7,035 bases of DNA from contig JAKAAK010000173.1 in assembly GCA_021797025.1 (NCBI GenBank), positions 1 to 7,035 of the forward strand, written 5' to 3'. Of this stretch, positions 246 through 7,035 are shown piece by piece (positions within the stretch are counted from its first letter, which is position 1; every line of letters begins with the position of its first letter). This DNA is from Thermoplasmata archaeon (GTDB lineage: Archaea > Thermoplasmatota > Thermoplasmata > Thermoplasmatales > Thermoplasmataceae). The position numbers were made by a program, and so were the translations under genes. The notes beneath the pieces are model-generated. The model did not search any database and was not told the origin of the DNA. It saw only the letters and a list, made by a program, of their open reading frames with translations.

Positions 246-998
246 TCATGGCTCAGTGATCAGCGCCCGCAAAAATGATCTTACGGAGGAATAGCTTATA
301 CTGTATCTGGCCAAGGTATCCTGATTTCCCACCTTTATTGTAATGGCATCGGGATTCATTTGAAAAGCGTCTTCGTCTGTGGCATCATCCCCAATAATGA
401 TTGCCAGCCTGTTAGCATTTCTCACCATTTTAATTGCCCTGCCCTTATTAACACCGGGTATTCTCAATTCACAAATGTCTATGCCGGTGTACATTTCCAT
501 ATTGTACTGTAATGCCAGTGATTTAACCTCCTCCATTACTGCTTTTCTTATGGATTTACTGGTGATATTTCCTGTATGAAATAATACACCACCTGATTTT
601 CTATAAATTCTAAGACCGGGAAATTTATTTACTAGATAATAATTTTCATCATACAGTTTCAATGATAACTCTTCGTATTCATGGAAGCCTGGTACTACTA
701 GTGTTTCCCCGTTTATGTGGAAGGTCGCACCGTGAAGTCCGATTATATTATAGTCACCTATAAAACTAGTTATTTCTCTTACATCCCTGCCTGTAACTAT
801 ATATGTTTCATACGATCGGGCAATAGAAGATAGGAGGCCTATCAATTCACAATCAGCCTGGTTGATTTCCGGGTCCTTGATTATGGGAACAAGTGTTCCA
901 TCATAGTCCAGAAAAATCTGAGGTGCCATATATTTTATACCATTCGCAAGTTCAAGTAGTTTATTTTCATGCATTGTCATAATTACTGTCAGCAACAT
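246..998 (-). CDS. otsB: Trehalose-6-phosphate phosphatase OtsB (HAD superfamily)
   Basis: This enzyme removes phosphate from trehalose 6-phosphate to give trehalose, the second step of the OtsA/OtsB pathway, in the cytoplasm. The HAD motifs are intact. Motif I is DYDGT at residues 31-35 (nucleophile D31, acid/base D33), motif II is TGR at 69-71, motif III is the lysine of NKG (K185), and motif IV is GDDATDEDAF at 203-212. FPGLRIYRK (126-134) and ELRIPGVNKG (177-186) are typical of the family, and I recall very similar stretches in the T. acidophilum enzyme. At 250 residues it is near normal length, but motif I lies about 25 residues later than in that homologue. The chosen ATG overlaps otsA by 32 nt; in-frame ATGs at 980 and 974 would shorten the overlap to 14 or 8 nt and are equally acceptable. 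The overlap implies co-transcription and coupled translation with otsA. Confidence 0.93.
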   Translation of the reverse strand: MLLTVIMTMHENKLLELANGIKYMAPQIFLDYDGTLVPIIKDPEINQADCELIGLLSSIARSYETYIVTGRDVREITSFIGDYNIIGLHGATFHINGETLVVPGFHEYEELSLKLYDENYYLVNKFPGLRIYRKSGGVLFHTGNITSKSIRKAVMEEVKSLALQYNMEMYTGIDICELRIPGVNKGRAIKMVRNANRLAIIIGDDATDEDAFQMNPDAITIKVGNQDTLARYSISYSSVRSFLRALITEP

Positions 999-2298
999 TT
1001 ATAATTCTTCTGTACCACCAGTTGCTATTCTTTGTGATCACATATTTTTTCATCTTTTCAAGCCTCAATTTTCTTTCCTCTTTGCTCATTTCCAGGGCCC
1101 GAACTATAGAACTTGCTATTTCATTTATGTTATTAGGGTTCACGATTAATGCACCCTTCAATCCATCTGCTGCACCTGCAAATTTAGAAAGTATCAGAAC
1201 ACCTTTTCTGGTTGTTGCCACAAACTCCTTGCTCACAAGATTGAGGCCGTCAACCAGTGGTGTAATTAAGGCAATATCACCATTTGAGTAGATAGTCAAT
1301 AAAGACTTGAATGGTATCTTACGGTACATATATACTATAGGGACCCAGCTGGACGTACTGTACAGGCCATTCACCCTGCCAATCTCCATTTCAAGCTGCC
1401 GTTTTATTTCATCATATTCTGGAATTCCTGTCCTGCTGGGAGTGACATTCATTAAATATACAAATTTTCCGGCAAGGTCTCTTCTATAGCTCAGGACTTT
1501 ATCGATGGCTTTTACCCTCTGAATAAGGCCCTTTGTATAATCCATCCTGTCTATGGAAAATATAATAGAAACCTTCTTCATGTGATGAAGCCCGTGTTTT
1601 CCTGTAAGTGGTTTATAAAGTTTGGTATCGATGCCAAGAGGCACGGAAAGCGTTTTGAAATGATTGACCGGCTTAATATTATTGTATTCCAGCGTGTTCC
1701 GGAAATTCTTTTCATAAAGCCGTATATGGAATGTTATCAGGTTTGCCTTTGAAACGCTCCTGGCAAGAAATCTCCCCTCCGGAAGTATGCTAAAGAATTC
1801 GGGTGATACCCATGGAATGTGCCATGAAAATATAATATTATTATTGATACCCATATTTCTAAGTATTGATGGGATCATCATTAACTGATAATCATGGATC
1901 CAGATAGTAGTTTTGCTATCAATTTTTTCCATTATTGCACCTGCAAATTTTTCATTTGCAATATAATAATATTTGAACCCTGTGGCATCCAGCTGTATGT
2001 TATTCCTGAAGTAATGGAAAAGTGGCCATAACACCCTATTAGAATAGCTGTTATAAAATCCAAACTTCTCTTTATCTGTAAGGTATATTCGCCGGATGGT
2101 ATAACCTTCTACCTCTTCTTCCTCATGCGCCCTATCGATTCTGCTATCACCCCAGCAAACCCATGTTCCACTGTACTTCTTGAGGACACTGTTCAGGGCT
2201 GTTGCGACCCCTCCGACGTTAGGCACTTTGATATTTCTTCCTCCCTGTATATGGTGCGAAAAAGGCGCCCTGCTGGTAACAACAAGAAGATTATCCAT
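967..2298 (-). CDS. otsA: Trehalose-6-phosphate synthase OtsA (GT20)
   Basis: This is a retaining GT-B glycosyltransferase joining a nucleotide-activated glucose to glucose 6-phosphate to form trehalose 6-phosphate. At 443 residues it matches single-domain OtsA and has no fused phosphatase. Family landmarks in order are VVTSRAPF (6-13; R10), GGVATAL (29-35), WPLFHY (91-96), WIHDYQLMMIP (133-143; D136), SWHIPWVSPEFFSILP (158-173; H160), DRMDYTKG (250-257; R251 and K256, which contact the donor phosphates in the E. coli enzyme), TPLVDGLNLVSKE (346-358; D350, E358) and FAGAADGL (373-380). All expected catalytic positions are present. It starts 29 nt after the GH15 stop and overlaps otsB at its 3' end. 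A T-rich TATA-like stretch upstream could give it its own leaderless promoter besides read-through. Donor preference (UDP- or ADP-glucose) cannot be read from the sequence. Confidence 0.95.
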   Translation of the reverse strand: MDNLLVVTSRAPFSHHIQGGRNIKVPNVGGVATALNSVLKKYSGTWVCWGDSRIDRAHEEEEVEGYTIRRIYLTDKEKFGFYNSYSNRVLWPLFHYFRNNIQLDATGFKYYYIANEKFAGAIMEKIDSKTTIWIHDYQLMMIPSILRNMGINNNIIFSWHIPWVSPEFFSILPEGRFLARSVSKANLITFHIRLYEKNFRNTLEYNNIKPVNHFKTLSVPLGIDTKLYKPLTGKHGLHHMKKVSIIFSIDRMDYTKGLIQRVKAIDKVLSYRRDLAGKFVYLMNVTPSRTGIPEYDEIKRQLEMEIGRVNGLYSTSSWVPIVYMYRKIPFKSLLTIYSNGDIALITPLVDGLNLVSKEFVATTRKGVLILSKFAGAADGLKGALIVNPNNINEIASSIVRALEMSKEERKLRLEKMKKYVITKNSNWWYRRIINVADSNYDNA

Positions 2299-2315
2299 GA
2301 AAATATAATACCTGA

Positions 2316-2325
2316 TAATTAAAAA
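2316..2325 (-). promoter_or_regulatory. Possible TATA-like box of otsA, or oligo-T terminator of the GH15 gene
   Basis: On the minus strand the 29-nt gap between the GH15 stop and the otsA ATG contains TTTTTAATTA, centred about 22 nt before the ATG. That spacing resembles the GH15 promoter in this window and would give a leaderless otsA transcript. The same T5 run sits 2 nt past the GH15 stop and could instead promote termination. No Shine-Dalgarno sequence precedes otsA. The two roles cannot be separated by eye. Confidence 0.3.
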
Positions 2326-2327
2326 GT

Positions 2328-4169
2328 TTATTTATTGAAGTTTGCACCTTTTTTCCTCATGGCCCTGTTCAATTTTACAGCGGCTCTTATGACACCAAGA
2401 TGTGTGATAGCCTGCGGGAAATTCCCCAGCATTTCATTGCTATTATCAAAATTCAGTTCCTCCGAGAACAGCATTAAATGATTTGAATATGATAATAAAT
2501 TCTCAAATGTTTCCTTGGCATCCTTTATACGGCCCATGAGGATTAAATCCTCCACGTACCAGAAAGACAGTAAAAGAAATCCATTGTCCTTACCTGTTAG
2601 TCCATCGTCGTTTCTGTACCTGATGAAAATTCCATCATTATTCTTTAAATCCTTTTCTACCTTTTCCAGGGTAGAAAGAAATTTCGGGTCACTAGCCTTG
2701 ATAAATCCGGTGAGAGGCATTCTGAGAATGGAGCCATCCACCTCGTCACTTCCGTAATACTGTGTAAATGCATTTACATTTGAATTATATCCCTTCTCCA
2801 TAATTTCTGTCCTGATTTCTCTTCTGAACTTCATCCATTCCCGGTATGGCGCATGATAACCAAGGGATTTTCCCATGATAATAGCCCTGTGGAATGCAGT
2901 CCATGATATAAATTTTGAATAAATATAGTGCCTGGGCTCAGCCCGAAATTCCCATATGCTGGAATCCGGAACCTGCCATATATCCTTTAAGATATCGAGT
3001 ATTTCTATAATAAAATCCCATAGATAAGTTGTAACCAGGCCGCCCGCCTCATAAAAGCGGAATACCGCATCTACAATTGAGCCATACTGATCGATCTGTA
3101 ATTGATCTGAAGCTTTATTTCCTATTCTTACAGGGCGGGAATTCATATATCCTGAAAAATTTACATCTGTTTCATCAATATCGGTTACGGAATTAATCGG
3201 ATATATTGTTCTTACCTTTGAATCTTTCTGAACTATAGCCATTAAATCATACAGGAATTTTGAAGCTTCATCTTTCAGACCGATAAGGGAAAGTGATTCT
3301 ATTACATATGCAGTGTCCCGTATCCATGTATAACGGTAATCCCAGTTTCTTTCACCGCCGATTATTTCCGGCAAACTTGTAGTAGGAGCTGCAACCATCA
3401 TTCCGGTAGGTTCATAGAAAAGCCCCTTCAGTGTAAGTGCGGACCTCAGAACATAATCATAGTAAAGACCACTGTAATTTATTTTACCTGTCCATGACCT
3501 CCAGTAATTCCTGCTTTCCTCAAGCCGGTCATATGAACTGTACTGTTCAACACTTCCTATTTGCCTCACACCACTCAATACCACGATCCAGTGGTATGTC
3601 CCTTTCCTCATGGTTATATTATTATAAACCTCTCCTTTCCCCTTATTAAGTTTCAAATTTGTTGAAACTCCCAGTGTATTATTTTTAGAGGAAAAGAGAT
3701 AGCCGTACCTGTTTTCGGTTATCTTTACATGATCGGCACCGAAGTTGAAATCGGGTTTCACATCTACTGTAATATCGATATCGGAATATGGTGCCTCGAT
3801 AAACCTATGTATTTCAGGGAAATTTATGGTACTGTAACTGGAAACTGGAAGGAAATCTGTAAGTCTCAAAACAACGTGATTGTCATTTATGAATTCTGTA
3901 ATAAGTATATTTGTAAATTCCTCATAATACTGGTTTACATGGCATGCTGCAATTGGTTTTGTTTTAAAATATCCACCTTTCTGTGCATCCAGAATTGAAT
4001 CAAAAACCGGATTTGAATTGAAATCAGGAAAACACGCCCAGTCAACCGTGCCATCCATTCCTACAAGTGCGGCAGTCCTGTTGTTTACTATGAATCCGTG
4101 ATCCTTTATTTTGAGGTAATCTGAACTGTATGTATTCTTTATATTATGTAAACCCCTATATGATCCCAT
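2328..4169 (-). CDS. GH15 family hydrolase, probable alpha,alpha-trehalase (glucoamylase-like)
   Basis: This is an inverting glycoside hydrolase of family 15. An N-terminal beta-sandwich (about 1-230) carries the family opening DHGFIVNNRTAALVGMDG (23-40) and VDWACFP (42-48). It is followed by an (alpha/alpha)6 barrel with GGERNWDYRYTWIRD (271-285). The probable general acid is E407 in WEFR (406-409), and the probable base is E570 or E571 in FSEEL, just before LGNFPQAITH (581-590). The 613-residue length is complete. Archaeal Thermoplasma members of this family have been reported to be trehalases. Sitting first in an operon with otsA and otsB supports trehalose as substrate, but glucoamylase or maltooligosaccharide hydrolysis is not excluded. 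No signal peptide is visible, so it is likely cytoplasmic. The ATG at 4169 lies about 22 nt from a TATA box, implying a leaderless mRNA; a short tail of about 20 residues precedes the domain. Confidence 0.88.
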   Translation of the reverse strand: MGSYRGLHNIKNTYSSDYLKIKDHGFIVNNRTAALVGMDGTVDWACFPDFNSNPVFDSILDAQKGGYFKTKPIAACHVNQYYEEFTNILITEFINDNHVVLRLTDFLPVSSYSTINFPEIHRFIEAPYSDIDITVDVKPDFNFGADHVKITENRYGYLFSSKNNTLGVSTNLKLNKGKGEVYNNITMRKGTYHWIVVLSGVRQIGSVEQYSSYDRLEESRNYWRSWTGKINYSGLYYDYVLRSALTLKGLFYEPTGMMVAAPTTSLPEIIGGERNWDYRYTWIRDTAYVIESLSLIGLKDEASKFLYDLMAIVQKDSKVRTIYPINSVTDIDETDVNFSGYMNSRPVRIGNKASDQLQIDQYGSIVDAVFRFYEAGGLVTTYLWDFIIEILDILKDIWQVPDSSIWEFRAEPRHYIYSKFISWTAFHRAIIMGKSLGYHAPYREWMKFRREIRTEIMEKGYNSNVNAFTQYYGSDEVDGSILRMPLTGFIKASDPKFLSTLEKVEKDLKNNDGIFIRYRNDDGLTGKDNGFLLLSFWYVEDLILMGRIKDAKETFENLLSYSNHLMLFSEELNFDNSNEMLGNFPQAITHLGVIRAAVKLNRAMRKKGANFNK

Positions 4170-4421: not shown

Positions 4422-5681
4422 ATGACCCTTGTGGATGATTCTATCCTATTAATAAAGAAGGCGCAAGAAGCAGAAAATAATAACCGGTTAAGGGAGGCCA
4501 TTGAATTATATACAGGAGCGGCGAAACTCTTGTTGGAATCATCAAAAGTTGAAAATCCTGAAGTGGCGGCACACAGGGAGCAACAGGCAAAGTCCATGTT
4601 TACCATAGCAGAAAATCTAAAAGAGAAACTCCATAATATGGAAAATTCTAAGGAAAATAAGATAGATGCATCCGGTGGAAAGGGCGAGATTAATAACCCC
4701 GATAAAGAGCAGGATATGAATATAGAAGCAGAACAATCAGATCAAAATCAGCTCCAGAAAGAATCCATGCAGGTTAATAATGAAAATAAAGTTATTAAAG
4801 AACAGGACCTGAACATGAAAAATACTCCGGAGGATCAGGAATTTCTTGATGCAATGGGCATTGATAATATAAATATCCCTGACATTTCATTCGATGATGT
4901 TGCTGGACTGGATATGGTCAAGGATGAAGTAAAGGTCAAAATACTTTTACCTCTGGTAAAAAAAGATCTCGCAAAGGTTTATGATATCAGTGCAGGTGGG
5001 GGAATTCTTATGTATGGCCCACCGGGGAATGGAAAAACGTTCATAGCAAGAGCCATAGCTCATGAAGCCCATGCATACTTTATCAACATAAATCCTTCCA
5101 ATTTACTCAATCAATGGTTCGGGAGATTTGAAAAAAATATTGAAACGCTTTTCAGATATGCATCAAAGCATTCCCCTGCAGTATTATTCTTCGATGAAAT
5201 CGACGCCATTACTCCTAAGCGGGCTAAAACCAATTCCAGTTATATGAAAAGGGCAGTGCCGGCATTACTCTCAGAAATGGATGGAATCGTTGCTAGAAAA
5301 CATACATTGTTAATCATAGGGGCAACAAACAATCCATGGGATATTGATGAGGCTTTCCTTAGACCTGGAAGATTTGGAGAGCGTATATATATTCCACCAC
5401 CTGATGTGAAAGCCCGTAAACTTCTCTTTGAAATGTATTTAAAAAACGCCATACATGATGAGGTGGACTATGATTATCTTTCCAGTATTACAGAACATTT
5501 CTCTGCTGCTGATATAAAATACGTTTGCAATAAAACAAAGGAGAATGTATTCAAAGAAGCCACAAAAACAGACGTTGTAAGAAATATAACAGAGAATGAT
5601 ATCTTAGAAGTTGTAAATGCCAGCAAACCATCAGTTAACAATGAACTTCTGGCCAAATATATAAAATTCCGGGACGCATAA
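4422..5681 (+). CDS. MIT-domain AAA ATPase, Vps4/CdvC-like
   Basis: This is a probable ESCRT-III-remodelling ATPase of 419 residues. An N-terminal three-helix MIT domain (about 5-73) carries the landmarks AIELYTGAAKLL (26-37) and IAENLKEKL (62-70). A polar, low-complexity N/K/E/Q-rich linker (about 74-150) follows, then one AAA module. The module has Walker A GPPGNGKT (199-206), pore-loop aromatic W232 (NQWFG), Walker B LFFDEID (255-261; E259), sensor 1 ATNN (301-304), arginine-finger region LRPGRF (313-318) and a sensor-2 region SAADIKYV (361-368). The C-terminal NASKPSV (399-405) and following helix resemble the Vps4/CdvC end. Vps4 differences are RPGRF in place of its RRRF motif, GRFEK in place of GESEK after the pore loop, and no room for the Vps4 beta domain. 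The ATG at 4422 is chosen from promoter spacing. The gene converges on an ESCRT-III gene, consistent with MIT-MIM partnership. A general p97-like unfoldase role is less likely given the MIT domain. Confidence 0.88.
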   Translation: MTLVDDSILLIKKAQEAENNNRLREAIELYTGAAKLLLESSKVENPEVAAHREQQAKSMFTIAENLKEKLHNMENSKENKIDASGGKGEINNPDKEQDMNIEAEQSDQNQLQKESMQVNNENKVIKEQDLNMKNTPEDQEFLDAMGIDNINIPDISFDDVAGLDMVKDEVKVKILLPLVKKDLAKVYDISAGGGILMYGPPGNGKTFIARAIAHEAHAYFININPSNLLNQWFGRFEKNIETLFRYASKHSPAVLFFDEIDAITPKRAKTNSSYMKRAVPALLSEMDGIVARKHTLLIIGATNNPWDIDEAFLRPGRFGERIYIPPPDVKARKLLFEMYLKNAIHDEVDYDYLSSITEHFSAADIKYVCNKTKENVFKEATKTDVVRNITENDILEVVNASKPSVNNELLAKYIKFRDA

Positions 5682-5693
5682 AGTTTTATTGCT

Positions 5694-5708
5694 GCGTGGA
5701 TTGCACGT
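5694..5708. repeat. Short hairpin just downstream of the ATPase stop
   Basis: GCGTG at 5694-5698 can pair with CACGT at 5704-5708 around the loop GATTG (one G-T pair). It lies 13 nt after the ATPase TAA, following a TTTTATT tract. It could help end the plus-strand transcript, or it may be the flank of the IS200/IS605-like remnant next to it. Confidence 0.3.
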
Positions 5709-5710
5709 CC

Positions 5711-5750
5711 TGACTTCCTTTACGCCCTCATGCATAGGGTTTCCGCCCCT
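5711..5750 (-). mobile_element. Solo right-end / omegaRNA-scaffold remnant of an IS200/IS605 (IS1341, TnpB) element
   Basis: The plus strand has TGACTTCCT (5711-5719), a hairpin CCCT/AGGG (5725-5728 with 5736-5739, loop CATGCAT) and GTTTCC (5739-5744), then CGCCCC. Read on the minus strand, this is GGAAACC, hairpin, GGAAGTCA. That is the layout I recall for the 3' end of tnpB elements, which doubles as the omegaRNA scaffold. The patch is visibly GC-richer than the AT-rich DNA around it. No tnpB or tnpA remnant lies on the minus-strand upstream side, where the ESCRT-III gene is intact, so this is a decayed or non-autonomous copy. The family assignment rests on remembered patterns, not a search. 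Confidence 0.45.
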
Positions 5751-5801
5751 AAATGCTAGAATAATGATTATCAATCAAATATTCATCTTAAATAAAATAT
5801 A

Positions 5802-5819
5802 TAGAATTTTTAAATTCTA
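5802..5819. terminator. AT-rich palindrome between convergent genes
   Basis: TAGAATTT (5802-5809) and AAATTCTA (5812-5819) are perfect 8-nt inverted arms around TT. It lies between the converging ATPase and ESCRT-III genes and could form a weak bidirectional hairpin. Archaeal termination relies more on T-runs than hairpins, so its role is unproven. Confidence 0.25.
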
Positions 5820-5842
5820 CGTTCTAATAATATTCTCATCCT

Positions 5843-5848
5843 AAAAAA
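5843..5848 (-). terminator. Oligo-T terminator of the ESCRT-III gene
   Basis: On the minus strand six T residues follow the TAA stop directly. Oligo-T runs after a gene are the usual intrinsic termination signal of archaeal RNA polymerase. The run is short, and the AT-rich palindrome just beyond may help. Confidence 0.35.
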
Positions 5849-6490
5849 TTAATTTGAATGCTCTTCCTGGGTTTTCTTGGCCTGATTTATTATATCTTCC
5901 AGGCGCTTTTCTTCTGCAGTTAGAGGTTTGGCTTCTGTATGGGGAGTGGATTCTACATAATCAGTAGAACTTTTGTTCTCAGTCATAGAATTTACAATAT
6001 CCTGAGCCTTCGGGGTTTTTACCTGTGAGCTTGAGGCTACTGTTGATGATATTGATTCTATCTGATTCATCAGTATATCAGATGCCTGCTCGCTTAATGT
6101 CATGGATTTTTCTAGGTCCTGAGTGAATTGAGCTATCTCCTTTTCAGAAACCTGGCTCAATCTCAGTATATCTGCACTGTCACCTATTGCAGAATTTATA
6201 GTGTGTGATGTTGTCATATATTTTAATGTTAGAGATACATTGTCCAGTAGAAGTTTCATGTCCTCAAGACCGGCTATAGCTGTATCAATCTGGGCCACAT
6301 TATTTGCAAATAGCTGAACCTTCTGGGTATTTCCCTGTTGACTGGCTGTTAGAGCATCCTGATAATAGGCATCTCTGATTCTCTGATAATCACGTATACC
6401 TCTGTTGATTGCCCCTATCTGCGTTCTAATTTTTGATTGACCTTCCAGAGCCCTTTCTTCGAAATTTTTTCGAATTTTAAAACCAACCAT
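5849..6490 (-). CDS. ESCRT-III (Snf7-domain) protein, CdvB-like
   Basis: This is a probable filament-forming membrane-remodelling protein of 213 residues, all helical in character. The N-terminal region (5-39) is strongly basic (K5, R7, K8, R13, K20, R22, R30, R33, R37, R39), as expected for helix 1 facing acidic membranes. The core follows the Snf7 pattern: ASQQGNTQKVQLFANNVAQI (49-68), then LDNVSLTLKYM (82-92), an acidic second half with EIAQFTQDLEKSM (118-130), and EQASDILMNQIESI (134-147). A Ser/Thr-rich linker (about 148-188) leads to a C-terminal helix 190-207 that resembles a MIT-interacting motif. It lacks the C-terminal winged-helix domain by which crenarchaeal CdvB binds CdvA, so it is closer to the short CdvB paralogues. 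The start ATG at 6490 has TATA-like boxes upstream. It lies 60 nt downstream of a second Vps4-like gene on the same strand and converges on the first. Confidence 0.85.
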   Translation of the reverse strand: MVGFKIRKNFEERALEGQSKIRTQIGAINRGIRDYQRIRDAYYQDALTASQQGNTQKVQLFANNVAQIDTAIAGLEDMKLLLDNVSLTLKYMTTSHTINSAIGDSADILRLSQVSEKEIAQFTQDLEKSMTLSEQASDILMNQIESISSTVASSSQVKTPKAQDIVNSMTENKSSTDYVESTPHTEAKPLTAEEKRLEDIINQAKKTQEEHSN

Positions 6491-6504
6491 AATAATATGT
6501 AATA

Positions 6505-6533
6505 TTAAATACTTATTAAATTTTGCTATATAA
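6505..6533 (-). promoter_or_regulatory. Candidate promoter region of the ESCRT-III gene
   Basis: The 60-nt gap between the second ATPase stop and the ESCRT-III ATG is very AT-rich on the minus strand. TTTAATAA, centred near 6517, is about 27 nt before the ATG and would give a leaderless mRNA. TTATATAG, near 6530, is about 40 nt before it and would give a short leader. Either could serve, so the gene may be transcribed alone as well as with the upstream ATPase. Confidence 0.35.
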
Positions 6534-6550
6534 GAATCCCATGTTTCTAA

Positions 6551-7035
6551 TCATTTGATAGTTTTCAGATAGTCGTCGTATTTTTTTATTAATGCATCAT
6601 CAACAGATGGTTTTATGCCAGAAATCACATTGAGAACGTCATTTGTTTCTATATAGACTTTTTTACCCATTTTTACAGCCTCCATAAAACTATTTTCGCG
6701 GGTTTTTCTGCAAATAAATTCGATATCGGCACCTGAATAATGTTCGGTTTTCTTTGCCAGTACATCATAATCAATGTTTTTTACAGCCTTAACTTTCATG
6801 AGATTGAGCTCGAGTATTTTTTTTCTTGCCTCATAATCCGGCAATGGAACATATATTTTAACATCAAATCTACCGGGTCTCATAATGGCTTCATCTATCT
6901 TCCATGGGTTATTTGTGGCAGCGATAATAAAAACATTTTTATTTTTCTGGGAATTTAGACCTCCTACTTCCTGCAATAACTGTGAAACTCCACGCTGGGA
7001 GGCGTCTGAATCTGATGTATCTCTCCTGGGCACCA
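6551..7035 (-). CDS. C-terminal part of a second Vps4-like AAA ATPase (5' end outside window)
   Basis: The minus-strand frame is open to the window edge, so the GTG at 7033 is an internal codon and about 160 C-terminal residues are visible. They start just after the expected Walker B region (PRRDTSDSDASQR, the loop before helix QLLQEVGG). Sensor 1 ATNNPWKID, arginine-finger region MRPGRFD, the sensor-2 region HYSGADIEFI and the Vps4/CdvC-like ending SGIKPSVDDALIKKY follow. Walker A, Walker B and any MIT domain lie outside. It is a clear paralogue of the ATPase at 4422-5681: across the 28 residues from ATNNPW to PD, 20 are identical. It differs in keeping GAD where the other has AAD, and LPD where the other has PPD. 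As there, no Vps4 beta-domain insertion is seen. It is followed 60 nt later by the ESCRT-III gene on the same strand, which suggests a shared operon. Confidence 0.85.
   Translation of the reverse strand, partial: VPRRDTSDSDASQRGVSQLLQEVGGLNSQKNKNVFIIAATNNPWKIDEAIMRPGRFDVKIYVPLPDYEARKKILELNLMKVKAVKNIDYDVLAKKTEHYSGADIEFICRKTRENSFMEAVKMGKKVYIETNDVLNVISGIKPSVDDALIKKYDDYLKTIK

Follow-up and report, generated by a model that had tools for sequence, protein, structure and literature searches.

A minimal ESCRT module and a second Vps4-like ATPase of a separate subfamily in a Ferroplasma-like archaeon

The window analysed here, a stretch of 7,035 bases from an acidophilic Thermoplasmata archaeon (contig JAKAAK010000173.1), carries three genes related to the endosomal sorting complexes required for transport (ESCRT): a complete MIT-AAA Vps4-like ATPase (A1), an ESCRT-III-like gene (E3) and the C-terminal part of a second Vps4-like ATPase (A2). 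An earlier note on this DNA had placed these three genes in one locus, and all of them are real. The locus is an extension of a known system, and what is new is the second Vps4 subfamily, the co-variation of ESCRT-III partner and tail with the subfamilies, and a change of the operon. The chances are about even that the A2-E3 module is the core and A1 an orphan motor of a second ancient Vps4 subfamily, whose partner (E3b) was lost in the genus.

The same region lies on contig C13 (L005 coordinates) of a draft genome of 1.75 Mb, G000. Between the window and G000, 23 of the 7,035 bases differ, so that two non-identical sequences share the layout found inside the window. The genus of G000 comprises Ferroplasma-like relatives; G062 is the metagenome-assembled genome "Ferroplasmaceae archaeon UBA567", and two relatives of A1 (P0008 and P0009) are named Ferroplasma. 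The comparison set contained 117 genomes of the order, ten of them from the genus of the window (G000 and G060-G068).

Two Vps4 subfamilies and their ESCRT-III partners

The tree of the Vps4-like ATPases was based on 76 of 95 rows, without those of the VAT domains, of a third and distinct type of ATPase and of an N-gapped G062 copy, and without several long rows. It is split with a support of 100/100 into 36 A1-type and 40 A2-type sequences. A1 and A2 are therefore not the product of a local duplication but, as the earlier note had it, diverged paralogues. A1 is placed in a clade of 11 rows with Ferroplasma-lineage proteins (100/100), which joins its nearest neighbors on the A1 side less firmly (87/57 and 92/67). 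Both subfamilies are found in 13 of the 117 genomes (G000, G062, G067, G048, G049, G051, G053, G054, G055, G059, G071, G081 and G085). The A1 type occurs alone in G078 and G082, and A2 alone in many genomes. The A1-type ATPase of G058 is a fragment of 152 amino acids, assigned by score and place and standing outside the tree.

Several groups can be told apart among the ESCRT-III proteins: one linked to A2, another linked to A1 (E3b) and a very diverged F-type (G060-G062 and G066-G068). E3b was found at E<=1e-30 in 16 of the 117 genomes, and the matches of three more genomes, at 8.5e-12 or weaker, are A2-type proteins. Outside the genus, E3b is present in 12 of the 13 genomes with an A1-type ATPase, G058 with its fragment included, the exception being G054, whose A1 gene is located at the edge of a contig. 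Several A1-subfamily genes are located directly downstream of E3b genes. An A1-type ATPase was not found in four of the 16 E3b genomes (G047, G052, G057 and G056, the last on a short contig). Within the genus, no E3b was detected in any of the ten genomes at 0.001, and a limit of 10 returned only the F-type proteins of G066 (0.06) and G068 (0.08). For this reason A1 looks like an orphan motor there. This pattern suggests that two ESCRT systems formerly operated side by side in the family, and that the lineage of the window retained one motor of each.

Upstream of E3b there is also a third, more distant type of AAA ATPase of 394-406 amino acids (L137:1455-2651 and equivalents in g4, g5 and g9 genomes). 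The order is ATPase, a protein of ~200-230 amino acids and E3b, often followed by the A1-type ATPase.

The C-terminal tails differ between the groups. A motif with the spacing of the MIT-interacting motif 1 (MIM1) occurs in 30 of the 33 A2-type tails, with L (28) or M (2) at position 7; the remaining three (G052, G056 and G057) read SDVDNLISKI, with an L by eye and a mismatch at position 1. Among the E3b tails the motif is present in 13 of 16, where position 7 is R (5), K (3), G (3), N (1) or S (1). The three without it belong to G052, G056 and G057, all genomes without a detected A1-type ATPase, and a second match of this spacing is found in G047_5971 and G082_4838. In E3 the tail EKRLEDIINQA (residues 194-204, positions 5879..5911, minus strand) has Ile at position 7, the residue class of the A2 type, and falls in a predicted helix (residues 192-212, with a predicted local distance difference test score, pLDDT, of ~65). 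Two of the six F-type tails match the spacing, also with I at position 7. Under a stricter spacing, 25 of 50 distinct tails match against 0.7 expected from shuffled tails, related sequences not being independent. A simple pattern for the proline-type MIM2 was found in none of the 50 tails. On the side of the ATPases, position 34 of the MIT domain is A, G or S in 30 of 30 A1-type rows, whereas the A2 type has Y (21), I (5), H (2), V (1) or L (1) in 30 rows; the counts cover 30 of the 36 A1-type and 30 of the 40 A2-type rows of the tree.

The genes of the locus

A1 is encoded on the plus strand (4422..5681, 419 amino acids) from an ATG at 4422 to a stop at 5681, and its start Met is common to the close orthologues P0001 and P0002. 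The MIT domain (PF04212, residues 6-68, positions 4437..4625) scores 30.5 bits, above the Pfam cut-off of 30, and the AAA domain 135 bits. There is one AAA module, with the motifs GPPGNGKT (Walker A, residues 199-206, positions 5016..5039), FFDEID and RPGRF. The Walker A motif is identical in seven of eight aligned sequences (P0011 has GAPGNGKT), and the key Walker and arginine residues are invariant or nearly so. Outside this alignment, the public relative P0001, 96% identical to A1, has FFDQID instead of FFDEID in Walker B, either naturally or by error; this change usually stops ATP hydrolysis. The Vps4_C helix scores 18.8 bits in the window, below the cut-off of 21.3; the value is 21.4 bits for G067 and 22.2 for G062. 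The raw AAA scores of A1 are nearly equal for CdvC (206.8 bits), PAN (202.6) and CDC48 (197.8), and its assignment to the Vps4-like ATPases is therefore based on its MIT domain, on the presence of just one AAA module and on the genes that surround its relatives. Both ATPases are below the cut-off of the crenarchaeal CdvC equivalog of NCBIfam (206.8 bits for A1 and 233 for A2 vs. 650).

Between G000 and G067, A1 shows 0.15 nonsynonymous (dN) and ~2.2 synonymous (dS) substitutions per site, which indicates purifying selection. The identity of the same pair is 68% in the MIT domain (residues 1-72), 21% in the linker and 89% in the AAA domain with the C-terminus. Orthologues, 59-96% identical, are found in 11 database clusters. 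The conserved MIT domain, the fast-changing linker and the purifying selection are an indication that A1 probably still grips something. In the genus, however, A1 was found in only two of the nine other genomes (G062 and G067); the seven without it all have A2 and ESCRT-III, and so A1 looks accessory. In G000 and G067 it occupies one and the same site, adjoining a GH15 trehalase-like gene. It is not at this site in G060, G061, G062 and G066, and no second Vps4 was detected in G068. The A1 gene of G062 lies on a different contig, on which no ESCRT-III gene was detected.

E3 (5849..6490, minus strand, 213 amino acids) had been described as a Snf7-domain protein. Its Pfam Snf7 score is just under the cut-off (25.9 vs. 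27.3 bits), with the homologue of G063 above it (32.7 bits), and it is the ESCRT-III-like predicted fold that bears the description out. The model, from a 33-row alignment, has a mean pLDDT of 70.6 and shows long helices together with a linker of low confidence and a helix at the C-terminus. Its top 12 Foldseek matches in the PDB are all ESCRT-III (CdvB2, CdvB and CHMP2A-CHMP3 chains; best E 2.1e-3), and E3 as modelled has the ESCRT-III helical fold. The VIA ordering puts BAR domains first, which is a common arrangement for long helices. Scored against profiles, E3 reaches 146.8 bits for a T-type of ESCRT-III and 5.7 bits for the F-type, and no other ESCRT-III was found in G000. The F-type proteins (L113:8114-8782, L114:12054-12716 and others) are extremely diverged, occupy the same place of the operon and gave no Pfam Snf7 match in the two copies scanned. 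A profile built without them caught them at E values of 2.7e-7 to 8.5e-5, the next non-ESCRT match being at 1.1.

The window holds the C-terminal 160 amino acids of A2 (6551..7035, minus strand), and the gene continues to 7654 in window numbering (L005:9541). It is complete in G000 (L005:9541-10644, 367 amino acids), with intact GPPGTGKT, FFDEID and RPGRF motifs. The question of the earlier note whether an MIT domain lies past 7035 has a less clear answer: the N-terminus of A2 scores 19.2 bits with Pfam MIT, under the cut-off of 30, but profile-profile comparison matches it to that of A1 with a probability of 96.8%, and MIT is precomputed for the relatives P0084 and P0086. With one AAA domain and an MIT-like N-terminus, A2 is not an unfoldase of the VAT/PAN type.

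The core module includes one more gene, which follows shortly after the end of the window on the strand of A2 and E3. It encodes a protein of 138 amino acids (L005:9117-9533, 7662-8078 in window numbering) and ends 7 bases before A2, which is followed by E3. Its predicted model is beta-rich (pLDDT 84), and position and taxon fit arCOG07400, of which it is a putative member; judged by position, this barrel may tether or regulate. The order barrel-A2-E3 is conserved in relatives. A distant second relative of the barrel, away from the core genes, is found at L117:14454-14822, with short open reading frames in G060, G061, G066 and G067.

A1 is convergent with E3-A2 and, being on the opposite strand, does not form one operon with them. 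Related arrangements were found when the gene order was compared across relatives: in G067 both ATPases lie within 7 kb, and in G081 an A1-type ATPase, A2 and ESCRT-III lie within 3.1 kb.

Positions 246-4169 of the window hold a trehalose cluster with a trehalose-phosphatase, OtsA and the GH15 trehalase-like gene adjoining A1, and A1 of G067 has the same neighbors. Of the 23 differences to G000, 19 are concentrated in some 90 bases (2200-2290) where otsA has its 5′ end, a pattern that resembles a small mosaic or conversion tract. Between A1 and E3 there is a GC-richer stretch (~5695-5760), without a second copy in the ten genomes of the genus and without an Rfam match.

The site of the operon and the division of the genus

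The relationships within the genus are illustrated by the gene at L005:2036-3274, which we take to be the large subunit of replication factor C. The G000 copy is 87% identical to that of G066, 86% to G068, 82% to G067, 80% to G062 (partial), 70% to G060 and G061, and 60-61% to G063-G065. In the ESCRT operon the order is reversed. The barrel of G000 is 67-69% identical to those of G063-G065 vs. 35-43% to those of the closer relatives, and E3 32-33% vs. 15-18%, respectively; A2 is less telling (66-68% vs. 63-65%). The native operon of G066-G068 is flanked by an acetyltransferase-like gene and a gene of 297 amino acids. In G000 this site measures ~330 bp, and the operon is found ~3 kb from it as the neighbor of A1; G067 has 177 bp at that position. 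The operon of G000 thus differs in type from that of its close relatives and occupies a new place next to A1. Three histories would explain this: replacement from outside, retention from an old duplicate pair, or a move with fast divergence. The first is likely, but approximately unbiased (AU) tests do not reject common descent.

Across the order, 100 of the 117 genomes have FtsZ_C. It was detected in none of the ten genomes of the genus, the three of g2 and the two of g13, nor in G114 (85% complete) and G029 (52%). A2 and ESCRT-III are present in all ten genomes of the genus and all three of g2. As the genus seems to be without FtsZ, the A2-E3 module may serve division. The result for the genus agrees with PMC10936438, in the sections of it covered here, according to which Ferroplasma and Acidiplasma are without FtsZ, SepF and PRC, encode a minimal ESCRT system and may divide by it. 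The same sections note as a caution that Thermoplasma and Cuniculiplasma have both FtsZ-type and ESCRT systems.

Possible roles of the second ATPase

The cdvABC cluster, to which the locus had been compared, is not its closest counterpart. The nearest one is the minimal ESCRT system of Thermoplasmata, made up of Vps4, ESCRT-III and the beta-barrel arCOG07400 (PMC10936438, in the sections covered), with which A2, E3 and the beta-rich gene before them agree in content and taxon. These sections contain no mention that we found of a second Vps4 subfamily, an E3b partner or two tail types. With CdvABC the locus shares an MIT-AAA motor and an ESCRT-III filament, E3 matching CdvB and CdvB2 in its fold, but it has two motors for one filament protein and a MIM1-like tail, without a match to the simple MIM2 pattern. 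No Pfam match to CdvA was obtained among the eight window frames scanned, and no whole-genome search for CdvA was made. In the case of eukaryotic Vps4 and the Vps2-class ESCRT-III (MIM1), E3b tails such as EKRLRERLKDI fit the MIM1 consensus; there, one Vps4 reads several tails, whereas here two Vps4 subfamilies go with two tail variants. VAT/CDC48 and PAN have a related AAA domain (see the scores of A1 above). In the PDB list for the A1 alignment, p97-type chains come first, matched over two stretches, and CdvC (4lcb) is matched over one. VAT/CDC48 and PAN differ from A1 and A2, which have one AAA stretch each and an MIT or MIT-like N-terminus, and G000 has a separate double-AAA protein on contig C85.

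In the reading with about even chances, positions 5849-7035 of the window and the next 1.0 kb are the minimal Thermoplasmatales ESCRT module, barrel-A2-E3, a probable division or scission machine of the genus. E3 would polymerise on the membrane, the MIT domain of A2 would grip its helical MIM1-like tail, and the A2 hexamer would thread and disassemble it. The own partner of the A1 subfamily elsewhere in the family would be E3b, with a MIM1 tail of the other type. With E3b gone from the Ferroplasma-like genus, A1 would survive as an orphan MIT-AAA motor, most likely in an accessory membrane or protein-remodelling task, acting either on a client to which its MIT domain was re-targeted or, with low affinity, as a helper on E3. 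A more specific version is tentative and on balance doubtful. It holds that two insulated ESCRT-III/Vps4 pairs evolved in Thermoplasmatales and were told apart mainly by tail position 7 (Leu, Met or Ile for A2; Arg, Lys, Gly, Asn or Ser for the A1 type) as read by MIT, that the second filament was lost in the Ferroplasma line, which has no FtsZ, and its motor put to use again, and that the lineage of the window swapped its division operon for a foreign type beside that motor.

Several points weigh against the orphan-motor reading. The tail of E3 fails the strict form of the MIM1 spacing. The MIT domain of the Ferroplasma A1 is about equally distant from the A1-type and A2-type consensus. G047 has an E3b with a MIM1-like tail, yet no A1-type ATPase was found in it, and the three losses of the E3b tail motif, being in related genomes, are probably one event. 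The ATPase search had a limit of E<=1e-60, by which more diverged ATPases may be missed. G000 is 84.6% complete, and E3b or FtsZ could be missing from its assembly, although the nine congeners also show neither. Thermoplasma has FtsZ and keeps the same module, and thus a division role is not compelled. Finally, A1 lies directly beside E3, which would fit the shared use of one filament.

Such a divided labour, in which both ATPases act on E3 via MIT, with division as the task of one and vesicle release or repair as that of the other, is rather unlikely, albeit not negligible. E3 is the sole ESCRT-III found in G000, the MIT domain of A1 is conserved, and A1 adjoins the ESCRT operon in G000 and is ~4 kb from it in G067. 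The congeners argue otherwise, as A1 is missing from seven of nine that keep A2 and ESCRT-III (four of the six with the F-type and all three of G063-G065) and is separated from any detected ESCRT-III in G062. The tail of E3 is also of the A2 type, while the MIT domain of A1 keeps a small residue at position 34. A mixed hexamer, with A1 and A2 in one heteromeric ring, is improbable. The earlier note had proposed it, and intact AAA cores with the RPGRF arginines in both proteins and neighboring genes would suit it; however, no evidence for it was obtained, the AAA regions are 48% identical, each subfamily occurs alone elsewhere and can therefore work alone, and the co-occurrence of the A1 subfamily with E3b argues for two separate systems. 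A role of A1 outside ESCRT, as an AAA ATPase of a mobile or defence-related kind, is just as improbable: patchy presence and changing location would be explained, but not an MIT domain above the Pfam cut-off, the subfamily members directly downstream of E3b or the common site in G000 and G067. Least probable is a decaying relic without function. That the presumed partner E3b was not found in the genus would agree with it, and it is contradicted by dN and dS, by the unbroken frame, Walker and arginine motifs, and by the orthologues in 11 database clusters.

The division of euryarchaea without FtsZ is an open question on which this locus bears, and the functions of the reduced Thermoplasmata ESCRT system remain to be elucidated, as stated in the sections of PMC10936438 covered here. 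The MIM1-like tails are a concrete candidate contact, open to test. Two Vps4 subfamilies with co-varying ESCRT-III tails would provide a simple natural system for the choice of filament by Vps4, outside eukaryotes and Sulfolobales.

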